The notes below the pieces were generated by a model. It worked only from the letters and a program-made list of their open reading frames with translations. It did not search any database and had not been told where the DNA came from. Source: Collibacillus ludicampi (GTDB taxonomy: Bacteria; Bacillota; Bacilli; Tumebacillales; BOQE01). Taken from it: a stretch of DNA of 64,000 bases. Shown here piece after piece: positions 30,026 to 46,625 of this stretch; positions within the stretch are counted from its first letter, which is position 1, and every line of letters begins with the position of its first letter. The position numbers and the translations under genes are program-made. The stretch is taken from positions 1,502,501-1,566,500 of the forward strand of contig NZ_BOQE01000001.1 of NCBI RefSeq assembly GCF_023705585.1, read 5' to 3'.

Positions 30026-31433
30026 ACAGGCTTTTCACGAGCGCTTCATGCGGCTGAAAAACTGGAAGCCAAGAGATCCCGGCAAAGCTTCAGCAAAGCT
30101 GAAAGTTGCACCTTTCAAGTTCAAGCCGTTTTCTCATAAGCAAAAGCAAGTCCTGACCTGGTGGATCCCCGGTGTGAGTCCACACGCCAATAAAAATGCC
30201 ATCATCTGTGATGGATCGGTGCGTGCCGGGAAAACGGTCGTCATGTCTCAGTCCTTTGTCATGTGGGCCATGGAGATGTTCAGTGACGAGAACTTCGGCA
30301 TGGCGGGGAAGACGATTGGCGCCCTTCGACGGAACGTGATCGGGCCGCTGAAACGGATGCTCAAGGCGAGAAAATACAAGGTCAGGGATCATCGGGCTGA
30401 TAACTACCTGACCATAACGAAAAACGGTAGGAGTAATTATTTCTACCTCTTCGGAGGTAAGGATGAAAGCTCACAGGATCTTATTCAGGGGATCACGTTG
30501 GCCGGTATGTTCTTTGATGAAGTGGCGCTCATGCCCAAGTCCTTTGTCGATCAGGCCACTGCGCGTTGTTCGGTCAAGGGGGCAAAGTTCTGGTTCAACT
30601 GTAACCCGGCGGGACCGTATCACTGGTTCAAAACGGAATGGCTTGATCAGTTGGAGCGCAAGAATGCGTTGAACTTACACTTCACCATGCGGGATAACCT
30701 CTCGTTGGATGAGGAAACCATCAAGCGCTATGAGAATATGTACTCCGGCGTGTTCTACAAGCGCTATATTTTGGGCCTCTGGGTACTTGCAGAGGGTGTG
30801 ATCTATGACATGTTCAATGAGGAGCTCCATAAAATCCCGGCTTCCCAATTGCCTGATCGCTTTGAGAGATACTATGTCGGCGTTGACTACGGCCATACAA
30901 ATGCGACGGTATTTCTTCTCATCGGGGAATTGCATGGGAAGCTCTATGTGGTTAAGGAGTATTACCACTCCGGAGGAGCCTCTTCGGGGGAAGAAGAAGC
31001 GACGGAAATGAGTAAATCACCGTCCGAGTACGCAGAAGACTTCATCGAATTCATCAAAGGGTATACCATCAGTCGGATTCTGATCGATCCAGCGGCCAAA
31101 GGGTTCATTACAGAACTCAAAAAGAGAGGGATCCGCAACATCGTGGCGGCGGATAATGATGTACTACCGGGCATTTCGGCGGTAGCTGTAGCGCTTACGG
31201 AGAACATCCTCAAGGTTTCAAGTGCCTGCGTGAACACGCTGCGAGAGTTTGGAAGTTACGTGTGGGATATCAAAGCCCAAGAACGCGGAGAGGACAAACC
31301 AATCAAAAAGTTCGATCACTGCATGGATGCTTTGCGATACGTTGTGTACATGTTGTTAGGCAAGAACAAACAGAAAACCTTCGGTCGTGTCGTGGGTACC
31401 ACTGCGGCCGATCGGATTGGCGCTTTGACGTAA
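30006..31433 (+). CDS. Terminase large subunit
   Basis: 475 residues. ATPase half with Walker A GSVRAGKTVVMSQ and Walker B MFFDEVALM; nuclease half with GVDYGHTNATVF and later acidic residues (ILIDPAAKGF; FDHCMDALRY). It drives DNA into the procapsid and cuts at the end. PBSX/Terminase_3-6 style. AGGAGG precedes ATG 30006, 9 bases away. Confidence 0.93.
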   Translation: MIPLRNEQAFHERFMRLKNWKPRDPGKASAKLKVAPFKFKPFSHKQKQVLTWWIPGVSPHANKNAIICDGSVRAGKTVVMSQSFVMWAMEMFSDENFGMAGKTIGALRRNVIGPLKRMLKARKYKVRDHRADNYLTITKNGRSNYFYLFGGKDESSQDLIQGITLAGMFFDEVALMPKSFVDQATARCSVKGAKFWFNCNPAGPYHWFKTEWLDQLERKNALNLHFTMRDNLSLDEETIKRYENMYSGVFYKRYILGLWVLAEGVIYDMFNEELHKIPASQLPDRFERYYVGVDYGHTNATVFLLIGELHGKLYVVKEYYHSGGASSGEEEATEMSKSPSEYAEDFIEFIKGYTISRILIDPAAKGFITELKKRGIRNIVAADNDVLPGISAVAVALTENILKVSSACVNTLREFGSYVWDIKAQERGEDKPIKKFDHCMDALRYVVYMLLGKNKQKTFGRVVGTTAADRIGALT

Positions 31434-31448
31434 AGGGGGTGAAGAGGC

Positions 31449-32804
31449 TTGGGAGACAACGAAATAAAACAAGCCAAAGGACGTGTTGTCGGGCAGATCG
31501 GAAGTCAGCTCTATACCACGTTCTTTTTGTTTGACAATGCGATCAGTAACCCCGATTGGTACCGCGTCTATGATTACGAGCAAATGGTACTCACGGACGA
31601 AACGATTGCTGCCGGGTTAGACTTCATGATCATGTCGGTGTTGAATAAGCTCGATCGATACGTAAACGAGACGGATAAAAAGCTGGAGATCTTCGTGAAT
31701 GATGCCTTAGAGCAGATGCAAGATTCCCTTCCGCTTTATGTCCGAGACATCTTGTCTGCCCTGTGGGCAGGATACAGCGCGACCGAGATCGTTTGGAAAA
31801 CTTCCGGGGCGTACATTTTGCCGGAATATCTCGCTACGTATCATCCGAGGACAATTCTATTCAATGTAGATCGAGAGACAGGCCGATTACTCAAAGATGG
31901 GGTGACCCAATTCCGTTGGTTCGCGGGTTCACCTGTAATAATCCCAACCGAGAAAGTGATTATCTACACGCACAACAAGAAATTCGGGAACCCGTATGGA
32001 GAAAGTCAGTTGAAGCGAATACGCAAGAATTGGGTGCTGAAAGATCCGCTTTTGAAAATGTGGATTAACGCCATGGACAAATACGGAACCCCGCTCCTGG
32101 CCGCGTTGATCAATGACCCGGATGCCGAGTTCCCGGATCCGGAAAATCCCGAGCAATTGATCAGTAACCTAGTGTACTCTGCTCGCCTGCTCTCTAATGT
32201 GCAAAATGGTACGGGAATTGTCCTTGCTCATGGGGAAGCCGGAGAGAAGCCGACAGACATCAAAGCGTTGGCCGGCGGGGGGCAAGGGATGGCTGAAGGC
32301 TTTTTCAACACGGTCACGTATCTCAACAAGATGATGCTGCGCGGCCTACTCGTACCGTCACTGATTTTCGATGAGGGACAGCGTTCCGGTTCCTATGCGC
32401 TTGGGCAGGCTCATTTCGACATCTACCAGATGATGCTCGATAGCATCTATAAGCAGTTAACAGAAGCCCTGCTTGAACAGTTCATAAGGCGCATGATCGA
32501 ACTGAATTTTGGTCCTCAGAAAGACTACGGTTCGTTTCCAGAGAAGGAAATGAACGAAACAGATCGCAAGTTGTTGTCCGATATCTTTTTTCAGATGACT
32601 AATGCGGGATATCTTGACCCGACGACGCAAGAGGATTTCGATCATGTAAGAGAAAGCATGGGGATTCCTCCCCGAAAAGTAGAATCACCTCCGGATCCGA
32701 GTCAAGCCGCTAAGCTAATGGGGAGATATAACCACTATGTTCGTTGGGAAGGGAATCAACCCGATGAATCACAAAATATGCTGCCGGAGAATGGGCCAGT
32801 ATGA
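31449..32804 (+). CDS. Portal protein, DUF935/Mu gp29-like
   Basis: 451 residues. Typical features of DUF935 portals: ILSALWAGYSATEIVW, YGESQLKRIRKNWVLKD and the helical GFFNTVTYLNKMMLRGLL followed by GSYALGQAHFDIYQ. Forms the dodecameric DNA gate at the capsid vertex. TTG 31449 after GGGGGTGAAGAGG. Overlaps the next gene by 4 bases. Confidence 0.85.
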   Translation: MGDNEIKQAKGRVVGQIGSQLYTTFFLFDNAISNPDWYRVYDYEQMVLTDETIAAGLDFMIMSVLNKLDRYVNETDKKLEIFVNDALEQMQDSLPLYVRDILSALWAGYSATEIVWKTSGAYILPEYLATYHPRTILFNVDRETGRLLKDGVTQFRWFAGSPVIIPTEKVIIYTHNKKFGNPYGESQLKRIRKNWVLKDPLLKMWINAMDKYGTPLLAALINDPDAEFPDPENPEQLISNLVYSARLLSNVQNGTGIVLAHGEAGEKPTDIKALAGGGQGMAEGFFNTVTYLNKMMLRGLLVPSLIFDEGQRSGSYALGQAHFDIYQMMLDSIYKQLTEALLEQFIRRMIELNFGPQKDYGSFPEKEMNETDRKLLSDIFFQMTNAGYLDPTTQEDFDHVRESMGIPPRKVESPPDPSQAAKLMGRYNHYVRWEGNQPDESQNMLPENGPV

Positions 32805-33598
32805 ACAAATGGGAGAGGCAAGTCACACGTTATCTCAATGACTCTGAACATCAACTGTTGGTCGAGTACGATCGATGGCTTAAAGCCGCATTCTCTCATA
32901 TCCCACTGGGGGCGAATGAACATGCGATCCATGGATTTCATCTCACGCATCATCAACGCTTATCGTCGATTTTGTTTAAGCATTCGGCGGCTGTTTTTAC
33001 GGCTGGTCAAGCCCATGGTGAAGAGGATTGCCAGGCCGTCCTCAAAAAGAAAAAACGGAGACTCGCGAAATACCCAGGAATCGATTTGGAACAAGCAGAT
33101 GACGACGATTCATTTACTCCGCATGACGCGATTAAAGTATTGCAGCAAAGATCGATTGTACTTGCAGGAGAAGTGGAGAACGATATCACTTCCGGTATCA
33201 AGGAGATTTTGCTGAGGCATTTGGCCGGATTACCCCGGCAACGGGCGGAGGAACAGATAGCGGAGCTGCTGGAACATAACATGAACCGGGCCAGCTTAAT
33301 CGTGACGACAGAGACGACGTATGCGTATAATCGCGGTCGTCTTTTTTCGTATCGCGAGTATGGAGCGGATTATGTTCGGTATATGGCCATCATGGATGCT
33401 CGAACTTGCCAGATTTGCGGGAGCCGAAACGGCAAGATCCTGTCTATGGATGATTTGGGTTCCAATATTCCACCTGTTCATGGCCGCTGCCGTTGCGTGC
33501 TATCACCGGTTTTCAGTGATGTGCAACCCGATCTGATCTCGAAGCAGGCTCTCGATTGGTCATCTGTAAAGCCTTTGCCAAAGGGATGGGTAAGTTAG
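32801..33598 (+). CDS. Head morphogenesis protein, Mu gpF/SPP1 gp7-like
   Basis: 265 residues. The C-terminal signature DARTCQICGSRNGKIL followed by IPPVHGRCRCVLSP, with its Cys/His set, is the phage Mu F-like domain. Minor capsid protein that acts with the portal. Coupled to the portal gene by a 4-base overlap. Confidence 0.88.
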   Translation: MNKWERQVTRYLNDSEHQLLVEYDRWLKAAFSHIPLGANEHAIHGFHLTHHQRLSSILFKHSAAVFTAGQAHGEEDCQAVLKKKKRRLAKYPGIDLEQADDDDSFTPHDAIKVLQQRSIVLAGEVENDITSGIKEILLRHLAGLPRQRAEEQIAELLEHNMNRASLIVTTETTYAYNRGRLFSYREYGADYVRYMAIMDARTCQICGSRNGKILSMDDLGSNIPPVHGRCRCVLSPVFSDVQPDLISKQALDWSSVKPLPKGWVS

Positions 33599-33610
33599 GA
33601 GGTGTGAGAT

Positions 33611-34645
33611 TTGCTGAAGATACCTGTCGGACGTCTCGGGGAATGGATTCATCCTCGATACGGTCGGATCAAGATGACACAACAGATGTTTAGTGAGATG
33701 ATCGATAACTTTAAAAAGCAAACGATCGGCCGCGATCCCTTCATACGAATTGGTCACGACAAAGCAGATGACCCCACCTTCGGAAGCGCGAAGGCAGAGG
33801 GATGGATTAAGGAACTCGTCCAAGAAGGGGAGTTCTTATTTGCACTAGCTGAACCCACTAATGACGAAGTGGCCAAGATGGTTCAGACCAAGCAGTACCG
33901 ATATGCAAGTCCAGAGTATCAAGAAAACTATCGAGATAAAGAAACCGGCTCGTTAAAAGGGGCAGTGCTTGAAGCACTCGCACTTACAAACGAGCCTTTT
34001 CTTACGCGCTTACCGGAAGCGCGTGTACTGGCGGATCCGCCAGATACATTTTATCTCGATTTTGAGGAGGTAGGTTATATGGAAAAAGAGATTCTGGAAC
34101 AGGTCAAACAAACGAATAGTTTGCTCAGTAGCTTTACTGCCAAACTTTCTGAGTGGTTTGGCAGAAAGGAGGGCAAAGACAGAGAGTCTGAGGATGGGAA
34201 CCCTGGTAAGGGAAGCGACGAAGGCAAAAAACTGGCTGAGTACGAAGCTCGTATGAAGCAACTGGAAGAGGAAAACCGACAAATTAAACGGGCACAACGA
34301 GAAGCGGAGATTGATCGAAAACTCTCTGAGTATACTGCCAAAGGGATTCCGCCGGCCATTCTTCAGCAAGTGCGTCCCATTTTACTTGCAGATACCGGGA
34401 CAGAAGTCATTAAACTGGCGGATGGAAAGTCATTGACTCAATCGGATCAAATCTTTGCTATGTTGGATGCCTTCCCAGAAGAATCTCGCGTCAAGTTGGG
34501 GCAAGTTGGTACGCAGGTAGAACCGCCGGAACCAGACAGCCCGGAAGCTGTCAAAAAACTGGCTGACGAGGATATGAAGGCGCTCGGTTTTACCGTTACT
34601 TCTGATGGCAAATACGTGTTGTCTGACACGAGAAAGGAGGCCTAA
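33611..34645 (+). CDS. Prohead protease with C-terminal scaffold, Mu gpI-like
   Basis: 344 residues. N-terminal half resembles Mu gpI (RIGHDKADDPTFGSAKAEGW; YASPEYQENY; LEALALTNEPFL), the capsid maturation protease. The C-terminal half is a charged coiled coil (ARMKQLEEENRQIKRAQREA), i.e. scaffold. TTG 33611 follows GGAGGTG. An internal ATG at 34079 with its own ribosome site probably makes the scaffold alone. Confidence 0.85.
   Translation: MLKIPVGRLGEWIHPRYGRIKMTQQMFSEMIDNFKKQTIGRDPFIRIGHDKADDPTFGSAKAEGWIKELVQEGEFLFALAEPTNDEVAKMVQTKQYRYASPEYQENYRDKETGSLKGAVLEALALTNEPFLTRLPEARVLADPPDTFYLDFEEVGYMEKEILEQVKQTNSLLSSFTAKLSEWFGRKEGKDRESEDGNPGKGSDEGKKLAEYEARMKQLEEENRQIKRAQREAEIDRKLSEYTAKGIPPAILQQVRPILLADTGTEVIKLADGKSLTQSDQIFAMLDAFPEESRVKLGQVGTQVEPPEPDSPEAVKKLADEDMKALGFTVTSDGKYVLSDTRKEA
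34079..34645 (+). CDS. Nested scaffold protein, in-frame internal start
   Basis: ATG 34079 is preceded by GAGGAGG (34064-34070) at 8 bases, inside the protease gene and in the same frame. The product (188 residues, MEKEILEQVKQTNSLLSSF onward) is only the coiled-coil scaffold part, as with Mu gpZ and lambda Nu3. Confidence 0.65.
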   Translation: MEKEILEQVKQTNSLLSSFTAKLSEWFGRKEGKDRESEDGNPGKGSDEGKKLAEYEARMKQLEEENRQIKRAQREAEIDRKLSEYTAKGIPPAILQQVRPILLADTGTEVIKLADGKSLTQSDQIFAMLDAFPEESRVKLGQVGTQVEPPEPDSPEAVKKLADEDMKALGFTVTSDGKYVLSDTRKEA

Positions 34646-34648
34646 TTC

Positions 34649-35248
34649 ATGGTCTATGTTGACAACTTTAATCCCAATGTCCCCGGCATGACCGAGGGAA
34701 GAACATTTGCTGACAAGCAAATCCATGTACATCCATCACGTCATACAATCCCTATAACGATCGCCCCGAACACGGGGGATTTGGACAAAGGAACCATTCT
34801 TGGTGTGAGTACAGCCGATGGTCTTTACCGTCCCGTTATTCGTACGACGGTAAAAGCGACACAGCCTGGGAATCCGCAGGTGATAAACGTGTCTCCCGAT
34901 ACCGGAATCAAGTTTTCTGTCGGACAAACCGTTTCTGTTATGCGTTCGGATGGGAGCGGGGTGCAACAGCTTGGAACCATTCAGGCTATCAACGGTGATG
35001 CGATCACGGTGCAAACCAGTCTTCAAGCGGCACTCAATGATGGAGATTACCTATACGTTGCTGATGGTAGCCAAAAAGCGCTCGTTGTTCTGGTTTATCC
35101 CGTTATGGATTCCACGCAACCGAAGATTGCTCAAGCGGATCTCGGGGGTGTCTACTGGAAAGATCAACTTGTCGGCTTAGATCCGATTGCTATTCGCGAC
35201 CTGGGTGCCCGGGAAATTCCCGATAACATTCTGGTAATCCCGGTATAA
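34649..35248 (+). CDS. Probable head decoration protein
   Basis: 199 residues, beta-rich, between scaffold and major capsid, the usual place for decoration or DUF2190-like proteins. TIAPNTGDLDKGTILGVS and VLVYPVMDSTQPKIA recall head decoration proteins of the lambda D-like group. AAGGAGG precedes the ATG. Assignment is partly positional. Confidence 0.6.
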   Translation: MVYVDNFNPNVPGMTEGRTFADKQIHVHPSRHTIPITIAPNTGDLDKGTILGVSTADGLYRPVIRTTVKATQPGNPQVINVSPDTGIKFSVGQTVSVMRSDGSGVQQLGTIQAINGDAITVQTSLQAALNDGDYLYVADGSQKALVVLVYPVMDSTQPKIAQADLGGVYWKDQLVGLDPIAIRDLGAREIPDNILVIPV

Positions 35249-35270
35249 CAGTAAAAGGAGGCGATGAAGA

Positions 35271-36290
35271 ATGCCATTTGCGCTTAATTTTCCGACTACG
35301 CAAGAGATCACACATATCGTTCGAAACGTGATTGTTGACCCCACGAAGTTTATCGGTAACGAGTTTGCGCCGGTTGTGGGTGTGTACTCTGAAAAAGTAG
35401 AGGTTGATGTCATCGAAGCGGTGCAGGGGATGACTTCCGCGCATAGTTTAAATGCGGATCCGAGCATCGTGACTCTTCCAGGTCAAAGCACACGAACCTA
35501 TGCAACTGCATATTGGAAAGAAACATACCGGATGAATGAAGAGGAGCTGCTGTTTGCACGTCGTGAAGGCACGTACAATCAGCGTGCCGGGCGTGACCGG
35601 GTGATCCGCCGAGCGATGGAAATGAACACGCGTCTTGAAACGCGGATTGAATGGCTCCGTTGGCAGATGCTTGTGAATGGAAAGATTCAAGTTAATGAGA
35701 ATAATGTCAAGTTTACGGTTCCTGCGAACATTCCGAATACTAATATGCCGAGCTTTGACTGGACGGATCCAAGCCATAACATCATTGGAGACATTGAAAA
35801 CATGTTGGAACTGTTCTTGGGGACGGGTGCCAAACCTAAAAAGGCATATTTCAACTACGGAGCAGCCAAATTGATGGCTCAAAATGAGGGGATTCGTGAT
35901 CTCTTGAAGCAAAGTATTTTTGCTACGACGCTTTCCCCGAGGAATATCACGAAAGCATTGCCCCTTCTGTTCCCGGAACTGGAGTTTGAACTCTATGCAG
36001 AAGGGTACGGCGATGGAAAAGGGAACTTTGTACCGTTCATCCCATCCAACAAGTTTATCATTCGAGGCGAGGGTATGCCTGGAGAAGTCCCGATGGACTT
36101 TGCTTCAACCATTACCCTCCATAACGGTGGCTTAGATCAGCCTCAACCTGGGAAATTCTCGTTTATTGAGGACGAAAGTCAAAGGAAAAACCCGCACGTG
36201 GATATCACGGTGGGAATATACGGATTGCCCCGTATTTTCCACCCGAATTGGTTTGTATCCGCGACGATTGCGCCGACAACAAATATCTAG
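35271..36290 (+). CDS. Major capsid protein, lambda gpE-like
   Basis: 339 residues. TKFIGNEFAPVVGVYSEKV, YWKETYRMNEEELLFARRE and a C-terminal YGLPRIFHPNWFVSA fit the PF03864-type major capsid proteins. The HK97-type shell subunit. AAAGGAGGCGATG lies before the ATG. Confidence 0.85.
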   Translation: MPFALNFPTTQEITHIVRNVIVDPTKFIGNEFAPVVGVYSEKVEVDVIEAVQGMTSAHSLNADPSIVTLPGQSTRTYATAYWKETYRMNEEELLFARREGTYNQRAGRDRVIRRAMEMNTRLETRIEWLRWQMLVNGKIQVNENNVKFTVPANIPNTNMPSFDWTDPSHNIIGDIENMLELFLGTGAKPKKAYFNYGAAKLMAQNEGIRDLLKQSIFATTLSPRNITKALPLLFPELEFELYAEGYGDGKGNFVPFIPSNKFIIRGEGMPGEVPMDFASTITLHNGGLDQPQPGKFSFIEDESQRKNPHVDITVGIYGLPRIFHPNWFVSATIAPTTNI

Positions 36291-36301
36291 GGGTGAGGCT
36301 T

Positions 36302-36766
36302 GTGTATTGCTCGCCTCAGGATGTTTTAAGTACGCATGAACTGTTGAACAGCGAAGATTTCAGTGATGAGATGGTTGAGCAGTTCATCCGAGATGCCCAA
36401 ACGATGATCGATAGTGTTTTAAAAGAGCAGTACGTCGTACCTCTGCAGGATCCCGTACCTGACATCATACGGGTCATCTGCAAGTACAAGGCGGCTGCTC
36501 TTTTGCTTACGCTTCATTTTAGCGGGGTGAACTATCGTGAGGACACCCCGCTGTCCGTTCATTATGAGCGATTAGCTGATCGGCAACTCGAGCGTGTTAT
36601 TGAGAAGGATTTGCTGAACGGGGAGCCCGGTGTCACTCGACAGCAACCGCCTGTGCGTGAATCTCGTCCGAGAATGGCCAGTACGACACCTAATAAAAGT
36701 GCAGTACAGAGGGCTTTGCATCAATTTGATCGCGCATCACGCGATCCTTGGGGGCTGATTCCATGA
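36302..36766 (+). CDS. gp36-like head-tail connector, DUF1320
   Basis: About 154 residues. YCSPQDVLSTHELLNSEDF and IRDAQTMIDSVLKEQYVVPL, then DIIRVICKYKAAALLLT, match the Mu gp36/DUF1320 family of connectors. GTG 36302 follows GGGGTGA; GTG 36293 is possible. Four-base overlap with the next gene. Confidence 0.75.
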   Translation: MYCSPQDVLSTHELLNSEDFSDEMVEQFIRDAQTMIDSVLKEQYVVPLQDPVPDIIRVICKYKAAALLLTLHFSGVNYREDTPLSVHYERLADRQLERVIEKDLLNGEPGVTRQQPPVRESRPRMASTTPNKSAVQRALHQFDRASRDPWGLIP

Positions 36767-37416
36767 AGGTCTATATCCGAGCTGAAGCTTCCGGCCCCGG
36801 AGTCGAAAACGGAGCGAATGGAATCGAAGCGATCGGTAATGTACTGGCGAGTATGGCGGCACGTGGTGAACGATTACGGCCGATCATGGGGAAGATCGGT
36901 ACGATTTTGATAGGTTCCGTCCATGAGAACTTTGCAGTCGAAGGACGCCCGAAGTGGAAACCACGTAGCGAAAAAACCATCCGTTCGATGGAGCAAGAAG
37001 CGGTTCAGAGATTGAGACAAACGAAAAGGTGGCAGAACGCGAAAAGGACGGCGACTCGAGCGAAATATGAAGATGCCGCTATGGAGAAGGCCCGTGGTAA
37101 CAAGTTGCTTCAACGTACGGGTGATTTAAGGAAAAGCATTATGTTGGGAAGTGTCACGGATCAATCCGTAGAGATCGGTTCCTCGCTGAAATACGCACGG
37201 ATTCATCAACTTGGTGGAACCATTCCCCGCATGACCATCAAACCGAAAAACAAAAAGGCGTTACTGATTCCGACCAGTGACGGAGTCATCCTTCGTCGAT
37301 CGGCCAATGTACCGGAACGAAGAATCCCGGCGCGTCCTTATCTAGGGGTTCAGCCGGAAGATGTTCCGGTTATCGCTGAAGCTGTGCGCTTGTTCGTGAT
37401 TGGTGGTGAACATTGA
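36763..37416 (+). CDS. Virion morphogenesis protein, Mu gpG/HK97 gp10-like
   Basis: 217 residues. NFAVEGRPKWKPRSEKTI, LLQRTGDLRKSI and YARIHQLGGTIPRM are hallmarks of tail completion proteins of the phage virion morphogenesis family. GGGGG precedes ATG 36763; ATGA overlap couples it to the connector. Confidence 0.85.
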   Translation: MKVYIRAEASGPGVENGANGIEAIGNVLASMAARGERLRPIMGKIGTILIGSVHENFAVEGRPKWKPRSEKTIRSMEQEAVQRLRQTKRWQNAKRTATRAKYEDAAMEKARGNKLLQRTGDLRKSIMLGSVTDQSVEIGSSLKYARIHQLGGTIPRMTIKPKNKKALLIPTSDGVILRRSANVPERRIPARPYLGVQPEDVPVIAEAVRLFVIGGEH

Positions 37417-37904
37417 TGCTGGATGAAATCTTGGATGCGATCATCGCCGCGATGAAGTCCGATCCAAAGCTGAACGAGGTTAAGACCTATCATAAGGTTG
37501 AGGGAATGTTAGCCGGGATCTCCACGTCCGTAAGTGTCTGGGTGCCCAAGCAACGGTTTAAGGAATACGATGGCAGTTACGACGAAGTAGACGCGGAAGT
37601 GCATATAGGTATTAGCGTTCATGATGCGGATATCGAACGGGGCGAACAGAAAGTAAGAGCATTGGCCGAGGAAATTCGGTTACTGTTGGTTGCGGATCAA
37701 CGAACCCTCGGAGGCCTGATTGACAACAGTTTCCTGAGTGATTGGGAGTACGCGAGTACGGCCGCTGACAAAGGACTCATGCTTCACTTGGCCGAGGCCA
37801 TTTGGCAAGTGACCTATTATGCACCGCGATTCCGTATCAATACTGCGGAACCGGTAGACGAGATCGAGTTTGAAGAAGACATTATTTCAGATTCTCTTGA
37901 ATGA
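37416..37904 (+). CDS. Probable tail terminator or neck protein
   Basis: 162 residues, alpha/beta, located between gpG-like and sheath genes, where tail terminators lie in Mu- and PBSX-like phages. Acidic C-terminus. ATG 37416 in TGATG overlap. Function assigned from position; no motif is decisive. Confidence 0.55.
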   Translation: MLDEILDAIIAAMKSDPKLNEVKTYHKVEGMLAGISTSVSVWVPKQRFKEYDGSYDEVDAEVHIGISVHDADIERGEQKVRALAEEIRLLLVADQRTLGGLIDNSFLSDWEYASTAADKGLMLHLAEAIWQVTYYAPRFRINTAEPVDEIEFEEDIISDSLE

Positions 37905-37921: not shown

Positions 37922-39322
37922 ATGCAGGAGCCGCAATATGTGGTGCCCCGGGTGGATATTCTGGAGCAACCATCAGACCCGCATCCCAAAACGACGGTGC
38001 AACTCAACCGTATCGGTATCGTTGGCACGTTTAGTTGGGGGCCTGTGAATACTCCTGTACGAGTGTATACAATGAAATCTGCGGAGAGGCTGTTTGGCGG
38101 ATACAAGCAAGGATTAACCGGTTGGCCGTCCGTTAACGGTGCCTTCCGGCAAGGAAATATGGATATCACGATTGTAAGGAGTGCGGGTCCTTCCGCAAAG
38201 AAAGCTTCACTGACTCTGGTGGATGCTTCAAATAATCCATCAGTGGTGGTGACCGGGAAGTATCCCGGAACGAAACCGATTCAAGTCTCCTGGCAAAACG
38301 GGACGAGCACAAATACCGGTAAGCTCATCGTCATCGCAGACGGTGTAGCAATGACCTATGACAATCTGACATTGGATACGCTCAATACGGTGAACGATCC
38401 GAATGTGGATGTAGCGAAAGCCAATGGAGCTACCGCGTTACCTGTGCCGATCAATGTGACTCCATTAACCGGCGGTGACGATGGGGCACAGACGCAGGAT
38501 TCGGATTATATAGGCACCGTAGATTCGCAGACCGGCGCAAGAACGGGACTCAAGATCTTTGAGGCAATCCCCGTGAATATTGTGCTTTGCGCACAGCAAA
38601 CGAGTGCTGCCGTTCAAGCGGCCCTTCTGGCACACGCGGCGAATGCTCCTGTCTCTCAGGGATTAAGAGTCGCGGTGATGTCCATGCCTTCCGGACAAAA
38701 CGTTGACCAATCGGCATCCAAGATGGCTACCTTGACGGGAATGCGCGGGATTATGGCATACAACTGGGTGGAACCTGAGGAGCTGCCGGGCACATACGTT
38801 TCTCCAGATGGTTACTACGCAGGGGTGTTGGCAAGTATCCAGTCCCATTGGAGCCCATCCAATAAAACCGTGCAAGGAATTCTAAGCACGCAATTCCAGC
38901 TATCAGATGATGATGTATACGAGGCCACGATGGCTCGAATGAGCCCGATTACGCAGGATATTGACGGAAGCTTTAAGATCCGGAACGGAGTGAATATGTT
39001 TGTGATGCCACCTGCCGGAGGGGATGATTGGTCGCAAATCAACGTGCGTCGGGAGTTTGATAAGCTTGAGACCGAAATCTACCTGGGAACGCAATGGGCA
39101 AAGTCCAATACTGATCCCAAGTTACCCGATCAGTTAGCAACCTGGATCGATGAGTTGTTGCGCCAACGTAAGGTCGAGACGCAGGAGATCGCAGACTTTA
39201 AAGCGACAACAGCTTATCGCGACCCTTCGAATCCACGTCGAGTGGTCACGACGATCCGTGTGAAACCGGATTGGGCTGCCGACTTTATCGATCATGAAAT
39301 CTCCCAGTGGAACGGTGCGTGA
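37922..39322 (+). CDS. Contractile tail sheath protein
   Basis: 466 residues. IVGTFSWGPVNTPVRVYT and FRQGNMDITIVRSAG at the start, GIMAYNWVEPEELPG in the middle and a C-terminal TIRVKPDWAADFIDHEI are typical of PBSX XkdK-like sheath proteins. It shows the phage is myovirus-like. GGGAGGGG precedes ATG 37922. Its stop overlaps the ferredoxin-like gene. Confidence 0.92.
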   Translation: MQEPQYVVPRVDILEQPSDPHPKTTVQLNRIGIVGTFSWGPVNTPVRVYTMKSAERLFGGYKQGLTGWPSVNGAFRQGNMDITIVRSAGPSAKKASLTLVDASNNPSVVVTGKYPGTKPIQVSWQNGTSTNTGKLIVIADGVAMTYDNLTLDTLNTVNDPNVDVAKANGATALPVPINVTPLTGGDDGAQTQDSDYIGTVDSQTGARTGLKIFEAIPVNIVLCAQQTSAAVQAALLAHAANAPVSQGLRVAVMSMPSGQNVDQSASKMATLTGMRGIMAYNWVEPEELPGTYVSPDGYYAGVLASIQSHWSPSNKTVQGILSTQFQLSDDDVYEATMARMSPITQDIDGSFKIRNGVNMFVMPPAGGDDWSQINVRREFDKLETEIYLGTQWAKSNTDPKLPDQLATWIDELLRQRKVETQEIADFKATTAYRDPSNPRRVVTTIRVKPDWAADFIDHEISQWNGA

Positions 39323-39558
39323 TCCACTTGGTAGAGATTCTTGATATCTGCCCCGGGTGCGGAAAATGCGTACGAAAGGGCGTATGCCCTACCGATGCAA
39401 TAACCATTCAAAAAGGAAAAGCGGTTATTGGACAGGGGTGTATAGACTGTGGTCTGTGCATCCCTGTTTGTCCAATAGGCGTGATTGTAAAAACGGAGCC
39501 CGAAGCAAAATCGATCGTTCAAGTAGAAAGAAAGGAGGAAGAACATGCCGCAGAATAG
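39319..39558 (+). CDS. Ferredoxin-like 2[4Fe-4S] protein within the tail operon
   Basis: 79 residues from GTG 39319, which overlaps the sheath stop (GTGA). Eight cysteines form two cluster motifs: CPGCGKCVRKGVCP (CX2CX2CX5CP) and CIDCGLCIPVCP (CX2CX2CX3CP), separated by a beta hairpin (AITIQKGKAVIGQG), the bacterial ferredoxin fold. The first motif has two extra residues. A Glu-rich tail follows. Its 3' end overlaps the tail tube gene by 14 bases, so it is woven into the tail operon rather than dropped beside it. Electron transfer, a structural Fe-S role in tail assembly or a redox sensor are all possible. Confidence 0.85.
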   Translation: MIHLVEILDICPGCGKCVRKGVCPTDAITIQKGKAVIGQGCIDCGLCIPVCPIGVIVKTEPEAKSIVQVERKEEEHAAE

Positions 39559-39985
39559 ACCGATACAAGGGTATGATGTTTCGGTTAGTGTCATGGGACC
39601 GAATGGCCCCGAGCTCGTTGGCGAGTGGCAGGAATGCGACATCAACATTACTAGCGAGACGGAAGAGTATCACGAAACCAATAGCCGATCCCCGATTCTT
39701 CTGGATGGTGACATTAAGTTTGACGGTAAGTTGAAGCGTGGGTATTTGAACACAAACATCGTGGCGACAACACTCGGAACGAATACCATCCAACCCGGCG
39801 TTGCCATTCCTGCTACGCCGCGATTTACGATAAGTTGCTACATCAACGCGCCTGATAAGGGCCTTGTGGGGCGTTACCGGCTAACAGGTGTGAAATTTGA
39901 AAAATTAGCGATCGCCATCAAGGCGGGTAAAACCGTTGTCGATAACGATCTCAGCTTCAAAGCTGAAGGTATCATTGAAGATTAA
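39545..39985 (+). CDS. Tail tube protein, XkdM-like
   Basis: 146 residues. GYDVSVSVMGPNGPELVGEW, EYHETNSRSPILLDGDIKF and KGLVGRYRLTGVKF fit XkdM-type tube proteins; stacks of hexamers line the tail. AAAGGAGGAAG precedes the ATG, inside the ferredoxin-like gene. Confidence 0.88.
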   Translation: MPQNRPIQGYDVSVSVMGPNGPELVGEWQECDINITSETEEYHETNSRSPILLDGDIKFDGKLKRGYLNTNIVATTLGTNTIQPGVAIPATPRFTISCYINAPDKGLVGRYRLTGVKFEKLAIAIKAGKTVVDNDLSFKAEGIIED

Positions 39986-40003: not shown

Positions 40004-40423
40004 ATGGCACAACCAATTGTATATGGACCGCTTGAATTACCGTCCGGGAAGAAGATCAAGTTCCGTCGTCCTACTGGTCTTGACCGATTGAATATCTTGC
40101 AGGCAATGTCCATCTCACAAGAGGACGCTGTTAAGGCAGGAATTCTCATGCAAACCTACCTGAACGCGAAAGTCGTCACGGAAGTGGACGGGGTACCGAC
40201 AGATGGGAACTATCTTAGACTGTTTAATGACTGGGATGATGCGGATATCACTTATTATCAAGCCGTGTTCAACGAAATGTTCGGTCTCACAGAAGATAAA
40301 TTGGCCAAAGCGAAAGACGCAGCGGCTTTTTTGCTCAAGAGCTCGACCTTTACCGATGGGTCCAACTCGCAAAACAATGCAACTGTTCCCTCGACACCTG
40401 GCTCGGTTACAGTGATGAACTAA
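40004..40423 (+). CDS. Tail assembly chaperone, short form
   Basis: 139 residues. LPSGKKIKFRRPTGLDRL and a helical body are typical of tail chaperones encoded between tube and tape measure. After about residue 108 the reading frame contains a slippery T-TTT-TTG; the -1 frame encodes a far more natural C-terminus than the Ser/Thr-rich 0-frame end. AAGGAGGAG precedes the ATG. Confidence 0.82.
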   Translation: MAQPIVYGPLELPSGKKIKFRRPTGLDRLNILQAMSISQEDAVKAGILMQTYLNAKVVTEVDGVPTDGNYLRLFNDWDDADITYYQAVFNEMFGLTEDKLAKAKDAAAFLLKSSTFTDGSNSQNNATVPSTPGSVTVMN

Positions 40424-40529: not shown

Positions 40530-42989
40530 ATGGCGGGAACAACGAGCTTTGTCATTTCCATGATCCTGACGGCTGTGAACCAAATGAGCCCGGCGATTAC
40601 GCAGGCCGTCCGGAACATGCGTATGTACCAGAACGTAATCAATGAGGTGAATCGTTCCTCCAATAAGGAGTCCTGGTTCAACACGGCGATTCAAAGAGCG
40701 GAGCAATTCGGCAAGAAGTTGAAAGATGCGCAAGACTCCATGGAGAAGCTTGTGAAGTCCGGGGAGAAGAATATATTTGCGGGTACAGCCATGGCACTTC
40801 CGTTGGTAGGGGCGATCAAGTCTGCGTCAAACGTGGAGAATATACAAACCTCTTTACGCTTGACTGGTATGTCGCAAACAGAAGTAGATAATCTCACAAA
40901 GCAAGCACAAGAGACCATGAGGAGAACGATGTTTAACACGGCGCAAGTTCTTGGGATTGATCGTTCGCTTGCTCAAGTGGGAATGGATTATAAAAAGATT
41001 CAAAGCGTGGGCACAACAGCAACATATTTAGCTGAACTCGAGGCCAATCGAAACGGCGCTGATCCGAACGAGACAGCGAAGCAGTTTGCGCAGATTACGG
41101 AACAACTAGGTATCAGCTTGAATCCTCAAAAGGTCAATGAGATGGCGGATATAGTTAATAGGATTGCAACCGTTACGAGCGCAAGTGTGGCAACGTTATC
41201 GGATAGCTCTCGTTATTTCAACCTTGTTGGCAAAATCCAAGGTCTGAAGCCCGAAGATATTGTAATGACACAGGGGTTGGCAGCCCGATTTGGATTGGAA
41301 GGATCTATCGGAGGTACACACTTGAAGGACTTTTTTGAAAGGTTGAATCCCTATACGCATATGGGACCGCACGGGTCGGCACAACTAGAAGCTTTCGCTC
41401 AATTAGGATGGTTAAATGGTGTAAAGAGAGACAAGAAAGGAAAAATCGTGGGCTTCTCAGGTGATGTGTTCCATGATGCTCAAGGTAACCTTGTTAGTGC
41501 GGCAAAAATCTTCAGCATTTTGGGAGAAACATATAAAAAATCGGGAAATAGAGAGCAGTTTACAGCACTTCTAACTCGAGTATTAGGGCAACAGGGTCAA
41601 GATATAGCGGCTGCTATTGCTCAAAATCCCGAAGCTTTCGCAATGTTGGTAGAACAGTTATCAAAAGTCCTTCCAGTGGAAGAGAGTATTAGTGAATATC
41701 AAAAGACGTTTAATCAACAATTTCATGCTTTCACTTCTACTCTTGCAGACTTTGGCAGGCAAATTGGAACTCTTGTTCTCCCAGGATTAACCTCATTCAT
41801 TACTCGTTTGAATGCTTCCTTACCAGCGGTACAAGGTTTCATAGATAAACATAAAGTTCTGATTAAAGACTTTGTATATGCTTGGGGAGCACTTGCGGGA
41901 TTCAAAATTGGAAAAGGCATTTTTAAGATCGCTATTGGCGCTCCATTAAAAGATCTTATCGGTTTTGGTAGATTCCTCACTGGGATCGGTAAAACAAGCC
42001 TAAAAGTTGCTCGTGATGTCAAAGGTTTTATCGATGCATTCCGTTATTTCAAACAAGGTTCCGGCTTCGTAAGTGCTTTGTGGAAGGCAATTGCTTTTGG
42101 TCGGCCAATTCTAAATCGATTAACTGTGTTGATGACCCAGTTAGGATTACGAGGTGGTTTAGCATTACTAAAGCTTCAACTTGCTGCAGGTAGAGCTCTT
42201 ACGTTATTAGGCTCTGGTATGCGTGCGACACTTTTGATTGCAAAAGGAATCGGTATGGGGTTAGCAGCTCCCTTCTACACTCTAGGAAGAGGAATTATAA
42301 AAGTCGTGCCTCAGGTTGTGATGTTTGGCGGCAGACTTCTTTGGCTCGGCGCGCAAGCCATGGCGATGGGAATTCGCATGGCGACAGCATGGCTCATCGG
42401 TCTTGGTCCAGTTGGTTGGATTATCGCCGGAGTAATCGCTCTTGTCGTAGCATTCATAGCCGCATGGAAAACGAATTTCTTGGGATTACGTACATGGCTC
42501 ATTGGATTCTGGAACGGTGTTAAAACCGTGTTCTGGAACTTCGTCATATGGGTGAAAACGGTGGGAACCAACATCGTGCAAGGGATCTGGGAAGGGATTA
42601 GGTCAATGGGATCCTGGTTGGCAAGCAACCTGAAATCATTTGTCAGCAATTACATCACGGGGCCAATCAAGTCGCTTCTTGGCATTCATTCACCTTCTCG
42701 CGTATTTGCTGGATATGGACTCAACATCGTACAGGGTTTGAGCAACGGTATCAATGATAACGCCCGTCGGGCTGAAATGGCTTCACGTAATCTGGCCAAA
42801 CGGGTTGCAATTGCTCCTGGTATTAGTGGGGGAACTCGAGGGGGATCCAGCTCTCGAATCCATGTCGAGCAACATTTTCATATTCAGTCCATTGATCCGA
42901 AGAAGGCGGCTCGCGAAGCCAGTCGGTTGAACGATAAGTACTGGCGCTCTCGGGATCCGCGATTAATGCGTGCATTGGGGAGGGTGTGA
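40530..42989 (+). CDS. Tail tape measure protein
   Basis: 819 residues. Coiled N-terminal region, ENIQTSLRLTGMSQTEVDNL typical of tape measures, hydrophobic segments from about 430 and at 628-645 (GWIIAGVIALVVAFIAAW), and a C-terminal GIHSPSRVFAGYGLNIVQGL signature. Sets tail length and probably aids DNA entry. GAGGAGGTG precedes the ATG. Confidence 0.93.
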   Translation: MAGTTSFVISMILTAVNQMSPAITQAVRNMRMYQNVINEVNRSSNKESWFNTAIQRAEQFGKKLKDAQDSMEKLVKSGEKNIFAGTAMALPLVGAIKSASNVENIQTSLRLTGMSQTEVDNLTKQAQETMRRTMFNTAQVLGIDRSLAQVGMDYKKIQSVGTTATYLAELEANRNGADPNETAKQFAQITEQLGISLNPQKVNEMADIVNRIATVTSASVATLSDSSRYFNLVGKIQGLKPEDIVMTQGLAARFGLEGSIGGTHLKDFFERLNPYTHMGPHGSAQLEAFAQLGWLNGVKRDKKGKIVGFSGDVFHDAQGNLVSAAKIFSILGETYKKSGNREQFTALLTRVLGQQGQDIAAAIAQNPEAFAMLVEQLSKVLPVEESISEYQKTFNQQFHAFTSTLADFGRQIGTLVLPGLTSFITRLNASLPAVQGFIDKHKVLIKDFVYAWGALAGFKIGKGIFKIAIGAPLKDLIGFGRFLTGIGKTSLKVARDVKGFIDAFRYFKQGSGFVSALWKAIAFGRPILNRLTVLMTQLGLRGGLALLKLQLAAGRALTLLGSGMRATLLIAKGIGMGLAAPFYTLGRGIIKVVPQVVMFGGRLLWLGAQAMAMGIRMATAWLIGLGPVGWIIAGVIALVVAFIAAWKTNFLGLRTWLIGFWNGVKTVFWNFVIWVKTVGTNIVQGIWEGIRSMGSWLASNLKSFVSNYITGPIKSLLGIHSPSRVFAGYGLNIVQGLSNGINDNARRAEMASRNLAKRVAIAPGISGGTRGGSSSRIHVEQHFHIQSIDPKKAAREASRLNDKYWRSRDPRLMRALGRV

Positions 42990-42990
42990 A

Positions 42991-43692
42991 GTGGATCAGG
43001 TTAAGCTTCGCATCGGTAACTTCACGTTTCAACTCTCACCCAGAGAAGAGTTAGATTTCGACTTCACACGAGCCATTGCCAAATTAGATTCGGTGGGATC
43101 CCCGACCTATCAGGATATTGGGATCGATGAAAAAACACTCAAACTGCAAGGGGCTTTGATTGGCACGGATGCCTGGACGCAAGCGGAACTCTTGGAAACC
43201 ATGATGGATAACGGGGTTCCACTGACACTACTTTTTGGCCCGATTCAGCGAACGGTTCGAATCTCGGCACTAAATCCTAAGCTAAAGCGGTTTGATTATG
43301 TCACCTATGACATGGATTTGATCATCATCCCCACTAAGAGTTCATATCAGGGGGATGCGTCACCGCAATCATCTTCTACTCTACAGACAAATACTCCTGC
43401 AGCGACGAGCACGGAGTCGATCCGTCAGTATGCAGATAAGACGGTAACGATCAAACAAGGGGATACCCTCTGGGGACTTGCTCAGAAGGAATATGGCCGA
43501 GGGGATTTATGGCCAGTCTTAGCAAAAATCAATGGGGTGAAGAATGAAAGAGCGTTGCAGATCGGACAAACACTTAAAATTCCGTCCAACTCTTTGATCC
43601 AGAAGGCTTTGGACGCTTATAACAATAGGATAAGCGCCATCATCACTGACGAAGGGATCGCTTATCTACAGACTCTGGAGGCTAAGGGCTAA
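42991..43692 (+). CDS. LysM tail protein, XkdP-like
   Basis: 233 residues. N-terminal baseplate-type domain, a Ser/Thr/Gln-rich linker (about 120-140), then a LysM domain (about 145-195: VTIKQGDTLWGLAQKEYGR ... IGQTLKIP) that binds peptidoglycan. GGGGAGGGTG precedes GTG 42991. Located between tape measure and hub as xkdP in PBSX. Confidence 0.85.
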   Translation: MDQVKLRIGNFTFQLSPREELDFDFTRAIAKLDSVGSPTYQDIGIDEKTLKLQGALIGTDAWTQAELLETMMDNGVPLTLLFGPIQRTVRISALNPKLKRFDYVTYDMDLIIIPTKSSYQGDASPQSSSTLQTNTPAATSTESIRQYADKTVTIKQGDTLWGLAQKEYGRGDLWPVLAKINGVKNERALQIGQTLKIPSNSLIQKALDAYNNRISAIITDEGIAYLQTLEAKG

Positions 43693-44792
43693 TGGGAGAA
43701 CCGCGGTGTATTGTACAGGTGGATGGGAAAACCGTTTTGCCTGAAGATGTGACTGAATGTGATATCGAAAACACTCTTTACATGGCGGCAGATAGCTTTG
43801 AAATCACACTTACAAATGATGATTTGAAAAGTGATTGGTTCCGGAAGAAGCAACAAGTCAAAGTGTATCTCGGCTATGTAGAAAACCCGTCACATTGGTA
43901 TTTGCATGAACTAGACCATGTGTTTACCGGCATGATTGATGGAGTAAAGCCGAAGTGGAACTCACAAGATGGACAAGTCGTTCAACTGATTGGCCGTGAT
44001 TACTCGGCCCCCATGATCGACACACAGTTCAGCATTGCCTATGCGAATAGAACTTCTAGCCAAATTGCACGAATGATGGCTGTAAAATACGGCCTGAAAC
44101 CAATTATTACAGAGACAACAGAAATTCTTCCTAAAGACGTGTACCAGGACAAAAAGGAATGGGAAATCTTGCAAACTCTCGCGGCTCGCGAGGGTTTTGT
44201 TTGTTATGTGACCAAAGATCTTGAATTGTATTTTGGTCCTCGTCAGGAAGCGGACGAAACGGTTGTTGCAACGATCTCAGCAAAAGGATCGGGTCTTTCA
44301 GGTAGCAGTATCGAGTTTGATGATAGCTCGGTGGGGGTCTATAACAAAGTAACTGTGTTGCATTGGCACAAAAAACAGTTGATCGAGGGCAGTGCACAAA
44401 ATGATGATCTGATTAAGGCCATGAACGGGCAGGTCGTCGAGAAAGTGGTCACTGATTCGAAAGCTACTAGCGTTGACCTTGCAAACAAAATTGCGGCAAA
44501 CTACTTGCACGAATACTCACGACAAGCAATCACAGGAATCATTGAGGATCTACCGGGTAACACCGTGTTTGTTGCTGAGAAGAAAGTCAAGATTACGGAT
44601 GCCGGCCGGTTCTCAGGTATCTATTACATTGAGAAGGTGAGACATAAGTTTGGCAAACAAAGTGGCTTCACGTCATCTTTGGATCTAACTAACATCCGTC
44701 CCGATGACGCGGAGCAATACAAAGAAGACTTATACCCGAAAGATCGATACTCTATGAGCAAAAGCGGCTATGTAGCAAAGGGGTCGATTTGA
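43692..44792 (+). CDS. Baseplate hub protein, XkdQ/gpD-like
   Basis: 366 residues. VKVYLGYVENPSHWYLHEL, VQLIGRDYSAPMIDTQF and YCV-type late control D features place it with XkdQ-like hub proteins that connect tube and spike. Start overlaps the LysM gene stop (TAATG). Confidence 0.82.
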   Translation: MGEPRCIVQVDGKTVLPEDVTECDIENTLYMAADSFEITLTNDDLKSDWFRKKQQVKVYLGYVENPSHWYLHELDHVFTGMIDGVKPKWNSQDGQVVQLIGRDYSAPMIDTQFSIAYANRTSSQIARMMAVKYGLKPIITETTEILPKDVYQDKKEWEILQTLAAREGFVCYVTKDLELYFGPRQEADETVVATISAKGSGLSGSSIEFDDSSVGVYNKVTVLHWHKKQLIEGSAQNDDLIKAMNGQVVEKVVTDSKATSVDLANKIAANYLHEYSRQAITGIIEDLPGNTVFVAEKKVKITDAGRFSGIYYIEKVRHKFGKQSGFTSSLDLTNIRPDDAEQYKEDLYPKDRYSMSKSGYVAKGSI

Positions 44793-45160
44793 TGAACGGA
44801 TTTGCCTATCATCCGCAACGTGGGATCGTCATGAGCCTCGAAGGTCATTACCGGGCAACGGTGCACCTACCAGAAGCGCGATTTGAAACGGATTGGGCAG
44901 ACTCCTGTGTTTGGTTACCACAAACGGGTATTGAAGTACTCGTTGTTTTCATCAATGGAGATCAAAATAGACCGGTCATTGTAGGAAGGTTTCCAACCGA
45001 AAATGAGGAAGGAACACCTCTTATTGAGTTAGCTGGGGGAGGGGCACCGATCGCTCGTGTCGGAGATATGGTTCAGGTAACTGGAGTAGATTCGAATGGA
45101 GATACATTTACTGCAACCGGAACAATAACTACCGGTTCAACAAAGGTTACGTCAGGTTAG
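44792..45160 (+). CDS. Baseplate spike protein, gpV-like
   Basis: 122 residues. An OB-fold domain (GIVMSLEGHYRATVHLPE; VWLPQTGIEVLVVFINGDQN; PVIVGRFP) as in gpV, then a short beta-rich C-terminus that may form the spike tip. Unusually short spike. ATGA overlap with the hub. Confidence 0.8.
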   Translation: MNGFAYHPQRGIVMSLEGHYRATVHLPEARFETDWADSCVWLPQTGIEVLVVFINGDQNRPVIVGRFPTENEEGTPLIELAGGGAPIARVGDMVQVTGVDSNGDTFTATGTITTGSTKVTSG

Positions 45161-45172
45161 AGGTGGTGAAAC

Positions 45173-45562
45173 ATGGCGGATATTTTCGGGGTGGATATAG
45201 CGCAAACCGATGTACAGGATTGGGGCACTACGTCCCAAGGTGATCTCGCATTGGTAGCGGGAGTCGATAACCTACATCAAGCTTTAGAGCGCCGATGGGC
45301 TACGCCATACGGGGCTCTTTTTTATGCGCCGGATTACGGAAATACCATCTTTGATATGCTCTCTGAACCTATTACCCCGGACTGGATCGAACGAGCGATT
45401 GTAGCAGCGCGTTCATGTATCCTGGCTGATCCGCGAGTCGCTGATGTTCAGGTAACAGTGACTCCTTTTCCGGAGAAGAGAATTGTGCACTTCCTCAATA
45501 AATGGGTTGCTGTCGATGGATCCAGTGGTCAATTTACAGGGCAGGTGACGGTCGGTGTATAA
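45173..45562 (+). CDS. Baseplate wedge protein, gp25/gpW-like
   Basis: 129 residues. LHQALERRWATPYGALFYAP and ERAIVAARSCILADPRV are typical of gp25-like wedge proteins. GAGGTGGTG precedes the ATG; overlaps gpJ by 8 bases. Confidence 0.88.
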   Translation: MADIFGVDIAQTDVQDWGTTSQGDLALVAGVDNLHQALERRWATPYGALFYAPDYGNTIFDMLSEPITPDWIERAIVAARSCILADPRVADVQVTVTPFPEKRIVHFLNKWVAVDGSSGQFTGQVTVGV

Positions 45563-46625
45563 GACGTTTGACCAAATTGTTTCTGAGATGCAAGCGGATA
45601 TGATCGCAGCGGGATCACAGGCAACGGACTTTACGGATGGTTCGCAGATTCAAACGCTGATCGCCGTTACAGCCCGTGCTTTGCAGAATCAATGGTACAT
45701 GCTTGAACAACTGGTGGAGCTCTTTTTCGTCATCTCGAGTGAAGGGCCATTCCTTAATTTACGAGTACAAGAGCGAGGGATTTCAAGGAAACAAGGGATT
45801 GCATCGACAGGAAATGTTGTTTTTACGCGAACAACTCCCAGTCCGATCGGATCACTGGTGCCGGCAGGAACCGTCTTCTCTACATTAGATGGTTCTGTGG
45901 AGGTAAGAGTCACTCAGGACGTAAACCTAGCGAGTGGATGGACAACAGGTTCGGCTCCGGTGCAATGCACAGTGGTTGGTAAGATCGGCAACCTTCCTGA
46001 AGGGACTCCCTTGCAAATTGCAGGCCCTGCGATTAGTGGTCTTCAAACGATTGCTGTAGGACCTGGAGGGCTCACTGGGGGTGTAGATACGGAGACTGAT
46101 GATGAGTTACGAGCTCGTTATCTTGAATTGATTCGGAATCCTGTTGACGGCGGAACGCCAGCAGATTATCTCATATGGGCTAAAGGGGTTACTGGGGTCA
46201 CAAACGCGTCGGTCTTTCCACTTGCACGCGGAAATGGGACCGTGGATATTCTCGTATCTGACGGCGGAATTCCATCGCAAGACCTTATTAACAACGTACA
46301 AAATGTGATCAACGAGAATCGTCCAGTGGGGGCGGATGCTCGGGTGATTCCGCCGACGGCTCATACAATTGATGTTGTAATTTCTGTCACACTAGCTCCT
46401 GGTTATACCCTTGCCAGTGTGCAAACACCAGTTATGCAGGCAATTCAAAACTATATATCATCTATACCGATCGGTGGAGTTGTGAGAGTTATGGGTATGG
46501 CCGATGCGGTGTTCAAAGTACCAGGAGTCATCGATTGCAGCATCAATACACCATCGTCAAACATTGCTCTCGGGAATCAGGAACTAGCCGTAGCTGGTAC
46601 CATTACCGTTCAACAGTCCTCATAG
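45555..46625 (+). CDS. Baseplate assembly protein gpJ-like
   Basis: 356 residues. TDFTDGSQIQTLIAVTARAL, GGVDTETDDELRARYLELIR and ADYLIWAKGVTGVTNASVFP are the Baseplate_J signature regions. GTG 45555. Forms the wedge ring with the gp25-like protein. Confidence 0.92.
   Translation: MYKTFDQIVSEMQADMIAAGSQATDFTDGSQIQTLIAVTARALQNQWYMLEQLVELFFVISSEGPFLNLRVQERGISRKQGIASTGNVVFTRTTPSPIGSLVPAGTVFSTLDGSVEVRVTQDVNLASGWTTGSAPVQCTVVGKIGNLPEGTPLQIAGPAISGLQTIAVGPGGLTGGVDTETDDELRARYLELIRNPVDGGTPADYLIWAKGVTGVTNASVFPLARGNGTVDILVSDGGIPSQDLINNVQNVINENRPVGADARVIPPTAHTIDVVISVTLAPGYTLASVQTPVMQAIQNYISSIPIGGVVRVMGMADAVFKVPGVIDCSINTPSSNIALGNQELAVAGTITVQQSS

Follow-up and report, generated by a model that had tools for sequence, protein, structure and literature searches.

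A ferredoxin gene of the 2[4Fe-4S] type as a probable tail-dedicated part of a contractile phage tail family in Bacillota

Why a gene for a small ferredoxin should lie between the sheath and tube genes of a contractile phage tail is the question raised by a prophage of Collibacillus ludicampi, contained in the 64,000-nucleotide stretch of genomic DNA analysed here (the window). A first, sequence-only reading of this DNA had described, at the sheath-tube junction, a frame with eight Cys in two [4Fe-4S]-type motifs that overlaps both the sheath stop and the tube start, and had regarded this tail-junction ferredoxin (Fd) as built into the tail operon, with three possible roles: an Fe-S tail component, a redox-gated step of assembly, or a late-made electron donor to a host enzyme. 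In the open-licence literature, no account of a ferredoxin gene in this position was found, and one may exist elsewhere.

In the window, a head module accompanies the sheath-to-baseplate module, which indicates a complete temperate contractile-tail phage (Table 1); integrase, repressor-type, replication and lysis genes are present as well, several of these names being read from the sequence. With a sheath followed by a tube, a tape measure and a baseplate J protein, recognized through PF04984, PF10145 and PF04865, the module is of the XkdK/XkdM type, and it shares with PBSX/XkdK-XkdM modules the order neck, sheath, tube, chaperone, tape measure, LysM, hub, gp25, J and I, a synteny seen in 25 loci. 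Since the predicted structure of the tube reached a pLDDT of only 41, the identity of this protein relies on weak family matches, phrog_365 ('tail protein') being matched by 8 of 15 members and PF09393 (phage tail tube) weakly by 5 of 15, together with synteny. We know of no XkdK-XkdM module with a ferredoxin gene between sheath and tube, whereas the window lineage has Fd at this place. Besides, the window genome contains a second sheath of a different family (L054, G000:C1:2643963-2645282), with a tube directly after it and no Fd.

Table 1. Prophage features around the sheath-tube junction, in window coordinates
Feature	Position	Strand	Basis
Head module: terminase, portal, minor head protein, scaffold/protease, capsid, connectors	29186..37416	+	Same prophage
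Neck/tail-completion-type protein, directly upstream of sheath	37413..37904	+	Syntenic in relatives
Contractile tail sheath, 473 aa	37901..39322	+	Pfam PF04984 2.4e-10, PHROG 23 tail sheath 1.4e-30
Tail-junction ferredoxin (Fd), 2[4Fe-4S] type, 8 Cys	39319..39558	+	ORF, Pfam, synteny, selection, predicted fold
Tube-gene ribosome-binding site aaaggagga, within Fd coding sequence	39531..39539	+	Sequence
Tail tube, 146 aa, distant XkdM/DUF2001 type; ATG 39545	39545..39985	+	Position, weak family matches
Probable tail assembly chaperone (XkdN position)	40004..40423	+	Position, synteny
Tape measure protein	40530..42989	+	PF10145 2.9e-16
LysM tail protein	42970..43692	+	PF01476
YqbQ-like hub protein	43692..44792	+	PF24032
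Probable baseplate spike-type protein	44789..45160	+	Syntenic cluster; name from position
gp25-like baseplate protein	45173..45562	+	Syntenic cluster; name from position
Baseplate J-like protein	45555..46625	+	PF04865 1.6e-59
Baseplate I / XkdT-like protein	46636..47193	+	Position, synteny

The ferredoxin frame and both of its overlaps were confirmed. Counted from GTG 39319, which overlaps the TGA stop of the sheath gene (39320-39322), the frame encodes 79 residues, and the mechanically called ORF, from GTG 39307, encodes 83; the real start is most likely TTG 39328 rather than GTG 39319, because the former aligns with the ATG of the closest relative, L021, and is preceded by a Shine-Dalgarno-like GGAACGG. 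At the other end, the tube gene overlaps Fd by 14 nt, its ATG lying inside the ferredoxin frame. The first Cys motif, CPGCGKCVRKGVCP, reads C-x2-C-x2-C-x5-CP and is two residues longer than the canonical form, while the second, CIDCGLCIPVCP, is the canonical C-x2-C-x2-C-x3-CP. Pfam Fer4 families match the window Fd with E-values down to 3e-9, and all the Pfam families matched are Fe-S binding and of the 4Fe-4S type; PHROGs gave no match to the window Fd at E 0.001, and weak matches to some other family members (phrog_16249, ferredoxin; phrog_8732). The family is made of free proteins of roughly 60-110 residues, in which a Fer4 core is followed by a C-terminal tail of variable length and charge. 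The conservation of a C-terminal 'TSTG' was set aside, since it results from the overlap of Fd with the start of the tube gene. A frameshift fusion of Fd with the tube, or of the sheath with Fd, was discarded as well, inspection of the junctions by eye revealing no obvious slippery site and a strong ribosome-binding site instead.

AlphaFold2 (11 sequences) predicts an Fd core with a pLDDT of about 90 in the best model, two of the five models being of high confidence, and a disordered C-terminal tail from about residue 61 to 79. The predicted structure displays the pseudo-symmetric ferredoxin fold, and Foldseek aligns it with the 2[4Fe-4S] ferredoxin of C. acidurici (1fca, TM 0.85 by target, rmsd 1.5) as well as with ferredoxin domains of larger complexes. 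Motifs and model together suggest that Fd folds around two [4Fe-4S] clusters. With the clostridial-type 2[4Fe-4S] ferredoxins (C. acidurici, PDB 1fca/1fdn; Fer4_7/Fer4_9/Fer4_10), Fd has in common the Cys motifs with their Pro, the predicted fold and the core size, but it differs from them by its neutral core, its added disordered C-terminal tail and its phage tail location, to which the window clade adds the two-residue insertion in motif I. The search of BFVD gave no viral fold match to the Fd model, and no homologue of Fd fused or structure-solved in a virion was found.

How widespread this arrangement is was addressed from several sides. The order sheath-Fd-tube is shared by all the relatives that were found first, by way of the sheath or of Fd: a metagenomic phage (L021), a prophage of an IMG genome (L027) and Desulfosporosinus acididurans M1 (L028/L029). 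Searches of whole Bacillota genomes with a tube profile added Fd loci in further families and classes, and the order is found in 21 non-identical loci of several Bacillota classes; the sequence-only reading, which was open to refutation by a lack of homologues in any related tail operon, has therefore withstood that test. Among the 16 searched Bacillota genomes having this tube family, Fd is present in 14 and absent from two (G001 and G009), and the Fd-bearing genomes include G387, G400, G191 (two prophages), G729, G607, G764, G583, G744, G805, G875, G819 and G846. In a sample of the phylum, the tube occurs in 7 of 398 genomes, and Fd in all seven of those. Viral contigs occur both with Fd (L121-L126, L129, L132) and without it (L036-L040, L133, L135, L137).

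As a position-blind control, a DNA pattern for CP[GA]CGxCxxxCP was scanned over 2.9 million viral contigs. It returned 18 stretches, of which all those with a ferredoxin frame (L163, L164, L165, L173) lie directly 3' of a sheath, as does a match at a contig end (L169); the other matches encode no ferredoxin frame. With a tail-Fd profile, tail Fds score 107-125 bits, while no other ferredoxin encoded in these examined genomes exceeds 44; those tail Fds are largely part of the profile itself, and those outside it still reach 63-78 bits. In a search of annotated phage records, P0001 matches only unannotated human-fecal contigs, with less than 50% identity, and the other tail Fds have no match; nor was Fd found at the junction in annotated phages with a related sheath or tube, namely Microcystis phage LMM01, a Microcoleus phage and Alicyclobacillus phage MMB025. 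In LMM01, the unnamed protein following the sheath (gp92, L138) is a distant homologue of the Fd-associated tube family and is therefore probably the tail tube. A different ferredoxin, 7Fe-type and FdxA-like, holds a fixed place directly after a RecA/UvsX-like gene in three IMG/VR phage contigs (L024:4917-5270, L025:4980-5303, L026:4055-4378) and is unrelated to the tail.

Across the 21 non-identical Fds, whose mean identity is 39%, the only columns without variation are those of the eight Cys and of two Pro, each directly following the last Cys of its motif. Motif II is canonical in all 21 and motif I in 15, the C-x5 variant being confined to the six-member window clade. Pairwise dN/dS of the core ranges from 0.09 to 0.21, reflecting purifying selection, with saturation in the case of the window/L021 pair. 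Fd is thus inherited with the tail module, selected for its eight Cys and translated from its own site between sheath and tube. Its distance matrix correlates with those of the tube (r = 0.76) and the sheath (0.58) over 21 loci, none of 5000 permutations reaching either value; over the 15 loci with long flanks, the correlations are 0.83 for baseplate I, 0.80 for baseplate J and 0.78 for the tube, and the lowest is that of the capsid (0.49). Once the other genes are taken into account, partial correlations are clearly positive for baseplate I, the chaperone, baseplate J and the tube, and close to zero or below it for the sheath, the capsid and the portal. These values are suggestive of a divergence of Fd that follows the tail genes and not the capsid, the 15 loci being related by descent, so that shared phylogeny may contribute.

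On a sheath+tube tree of 30 loci, the presence of Fd needs three changes, compared to a mean of 7.9 after shuffling, and the starred branches force three. The pattern is best explained by an ancestor of this tail family that already had Fd and by about three losses, one each in the L110/L111/L133/L135 clade, the L037-L040 clade and L036; independent gains are possible, as the root of the tree is not fixed. L036 is nested with full support in an Fd-bearing clade and has 74% tube identity, its loss being read from one fragment, a contig of 4 kb. Because L036 and two whole clades are devoid of the gene, contractile tails of this family are able to function in the absence of Fd. In some Fd-less relatives (L037:3935-4441, L039:3953-4432), the tube carries an N-terminal extension, LQLFAEQ or DLQRFN, before the conserved start. 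The L037/L039 clade also has its baseplate I gene replaced by another cluster, and one extra gene.

The strongest single argument that Fd serves the tail comes from a head-less tail cluster in G744. This cluster consists of neck, sheath, Fd, tube, chaperone, tape measure, LysM, hub and baseplate genes, plus an amidase and a holin-like gene, and about 19 kb on either side yielded no gene for a portal, capsid, terminase or integrase; inspected by eye, these flanks contain housekeeping genes (metK, guanylate kinase, 2-hydroxyacyl-CoA dehydratase activase type). The retention of Fd in this cluster, as a protein of 62 residues with all eight Cys, argues for a function in the tail, as opposed to one in replication or packaging of the phage or in the metabolism of the infected cell. 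By the distal end of the same cluster, radical-SAM/SPASM-like genes (L141:18195-19175, minus strand, and neighbours) stand with a 326-residue protein of Cys-rich CNCxSRT repeats, which may form a RiPP (modified-peptide) pair associated with this tail cluster.

Conserved position, selection, tail-tracking divergence and ancestral presence, as well as occurrence in the head-less cluster and in hosts regardless of whether they have haem-copper oxidases, thus favour a component or an assembly factor dedicated to the tail over a metabolic accessory gene. The early views of Fd as built into the tail operon and as an Fe-S tail component are both supported by its fixed position, its translational linkage to the tube gene, purifying selection, tail-tracking divergence and its retention in the head-less cluster. 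It is quite probable that Fd is dedicated to the tail, and somewhat more probable than its opposite that it is a two-cluster component of ferredoxin fold dedicated to a family of contractile phage tails. Whether Fd is physically present in finished particles, rather than acting only as an assembly factor, comes close to an even question, with the balance slightly against its presence.

The clusters could also do redox work in the tail. It is unlikely that the dicluster Fd is a redox-active working part, the redox state of its clusters deciding on tail assembly, on the locking or firing of the sheath, or on an event inside the cell that is struck, and equally doubtful that tail assembly or firing is gated by redox or oxygen, polymerisation or contraction being licensed only with intact (reduced/anoxic) clusters. 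Such gating would fit the conserved residues, which are exactly the cluster-binding ones, the usual oxygen sensitivity of low-potential dicluster folds, the lack of COX1 in many hosts and the loss of Fd in some lineages. However, full-length haem-copper oxidase subunit I is found in several genomes keeping Fd (the window genome G000, with four matches, G387, G400 and G191), no haem-copper oxidase (COX1) is found in others (G729, G607, G764, G583, G819, G846 and G875), and the Fd-less G001 and G009 also have haem-copper oxidases. As Fd-bearing hosts occur on both sides, there is no simple link of Fd to anaerobic metabolism and no clear one to lifestyle; in addition, no partner sensor is visible.

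That Fd would be an auxiliary metabolic gene, namely a late electron carrier for a host or phage enzyme, is improbable. Its fold and motifs are those of the electron-carrier type, and cyanophages offer a precedent with PetF, a plant-type [2Fe-2S] ferredoxin. Fd matches 4Fe-4S families only, and not the plant-type Fer2 of PetF. Present in 44 of 153 cyanophage genomes (PMC10452541), PetF is a phage-encoded ferredoxin like Fd, but a metabolic one. Its gene does not lie in a tail module. While auxiliary metabolic genes are placed outside structural modules, patchy and tied to host metabolism, Fd lies between sheath and tube with overlapping frames, persists in a head-less cluster, diverges along with tail genes and shows no tie to the respiration type of the host; no oxidoreductase that could be its partner was seen within the tail module. 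Besides, the net charge of the Fd core is -0.1 on average (range -3 to +3) versus -8 for the C. acidurici ferredoxin, whose sequence was checked against its PDB copy. Compared with this one soluble ferredoxin, the only reference for the strongly acidic core of electron carriers, the core of Fd is neutral, which is evidence against a free electron shuttle. Among solved structures, the best sequence-profile matches are the MvhB polyferredoxin and the ferredoxin domains of CarE/EtfA, which belong to cellular electron-transfer complexes, unlike the tail Fd. The early proposal of a late protein feeding electrons to a host enzyme is therefore not supported.

Very improbable is a cis-acting role, in which the main effect of the ORF would be to link translation of the sheath to that of the tube, its own product being of no importance. 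Most Fd ORFs do overlap the tube start, and the tube ribosome-binding site is inside the 3' end of Fd; nevertheless, purifying selection and the invariance of precisely eight Cys and two Pro are at odds with a mere spacer, and most Fd-less relatives manage with a short sheath-tube gap, mostly 14-18 nt, and a ribosome-binding site. Small Cys-rich phage proteins often are zinc proteins, but a structural mini-domain with two Zn sites is just as hard to sustain, given that the doubled C-x2-C-x2-C-x3-C-P is the defining 2[4Fe-4S] signature, that nearly all matches in Pfam, NCBIfam and PDB are to Fe-S proteins and that the predicted fold is that of a ferredoxin.

Coming back to the dedicated tail part, Fd would be a small low-copy tail subunit, or an assembly factor, working with the tube and the baseplate. 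Its predicted ribosome-binding site is weaker than that of the tube in 19 of 21 loci (mean of -11.8 versus -15.7 kcal/mol), which suggests that it is made in fewer copies. The clusters would act as a rigid core that holds the short polypeptide together and presents a docking surface, and not as a metabolic electron shuttle, a role modelled on an earlier hypothesis about the siphophage tip protein lambda gpL and its single [4Fe-4S]. According to PMC10721106, which cites Tam et al. 2013, lambda gpL-type tail-tip proteins have a C-terminal [4Fe-4S] whose role is still open, with Cys173, 182, 205 and 212 as cluster ligands in lambda gpL; RcGTA gp13 is another tail-tip protein of this type. gpL and Fd are alike in having an Fe-S cluster, predicted in the case of Fd, in a phage tail part, but gpL belongs to a siphophage tip and holds one cluster in its own C-terminal domain, whereas Fd is a free dicluster gene of a contractile tail. 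The Fe-S domain of Fd does not form the C-terminal end of a tail-tip protein.

Accordingly, part of the small genes called 'ferredoxin' in Bacillota genomes are tail genes, and annotation as well as counts of viral metabolic genes need correcting. Finally, Fd in contractile modules would provide a second, genetically simple system for the function of Fe-S clusters in phage tails, in which the gene can be deleted or its Cys mutated with the tube ribosome-binding site kept, both in prophages and in a natural head-less cluster.
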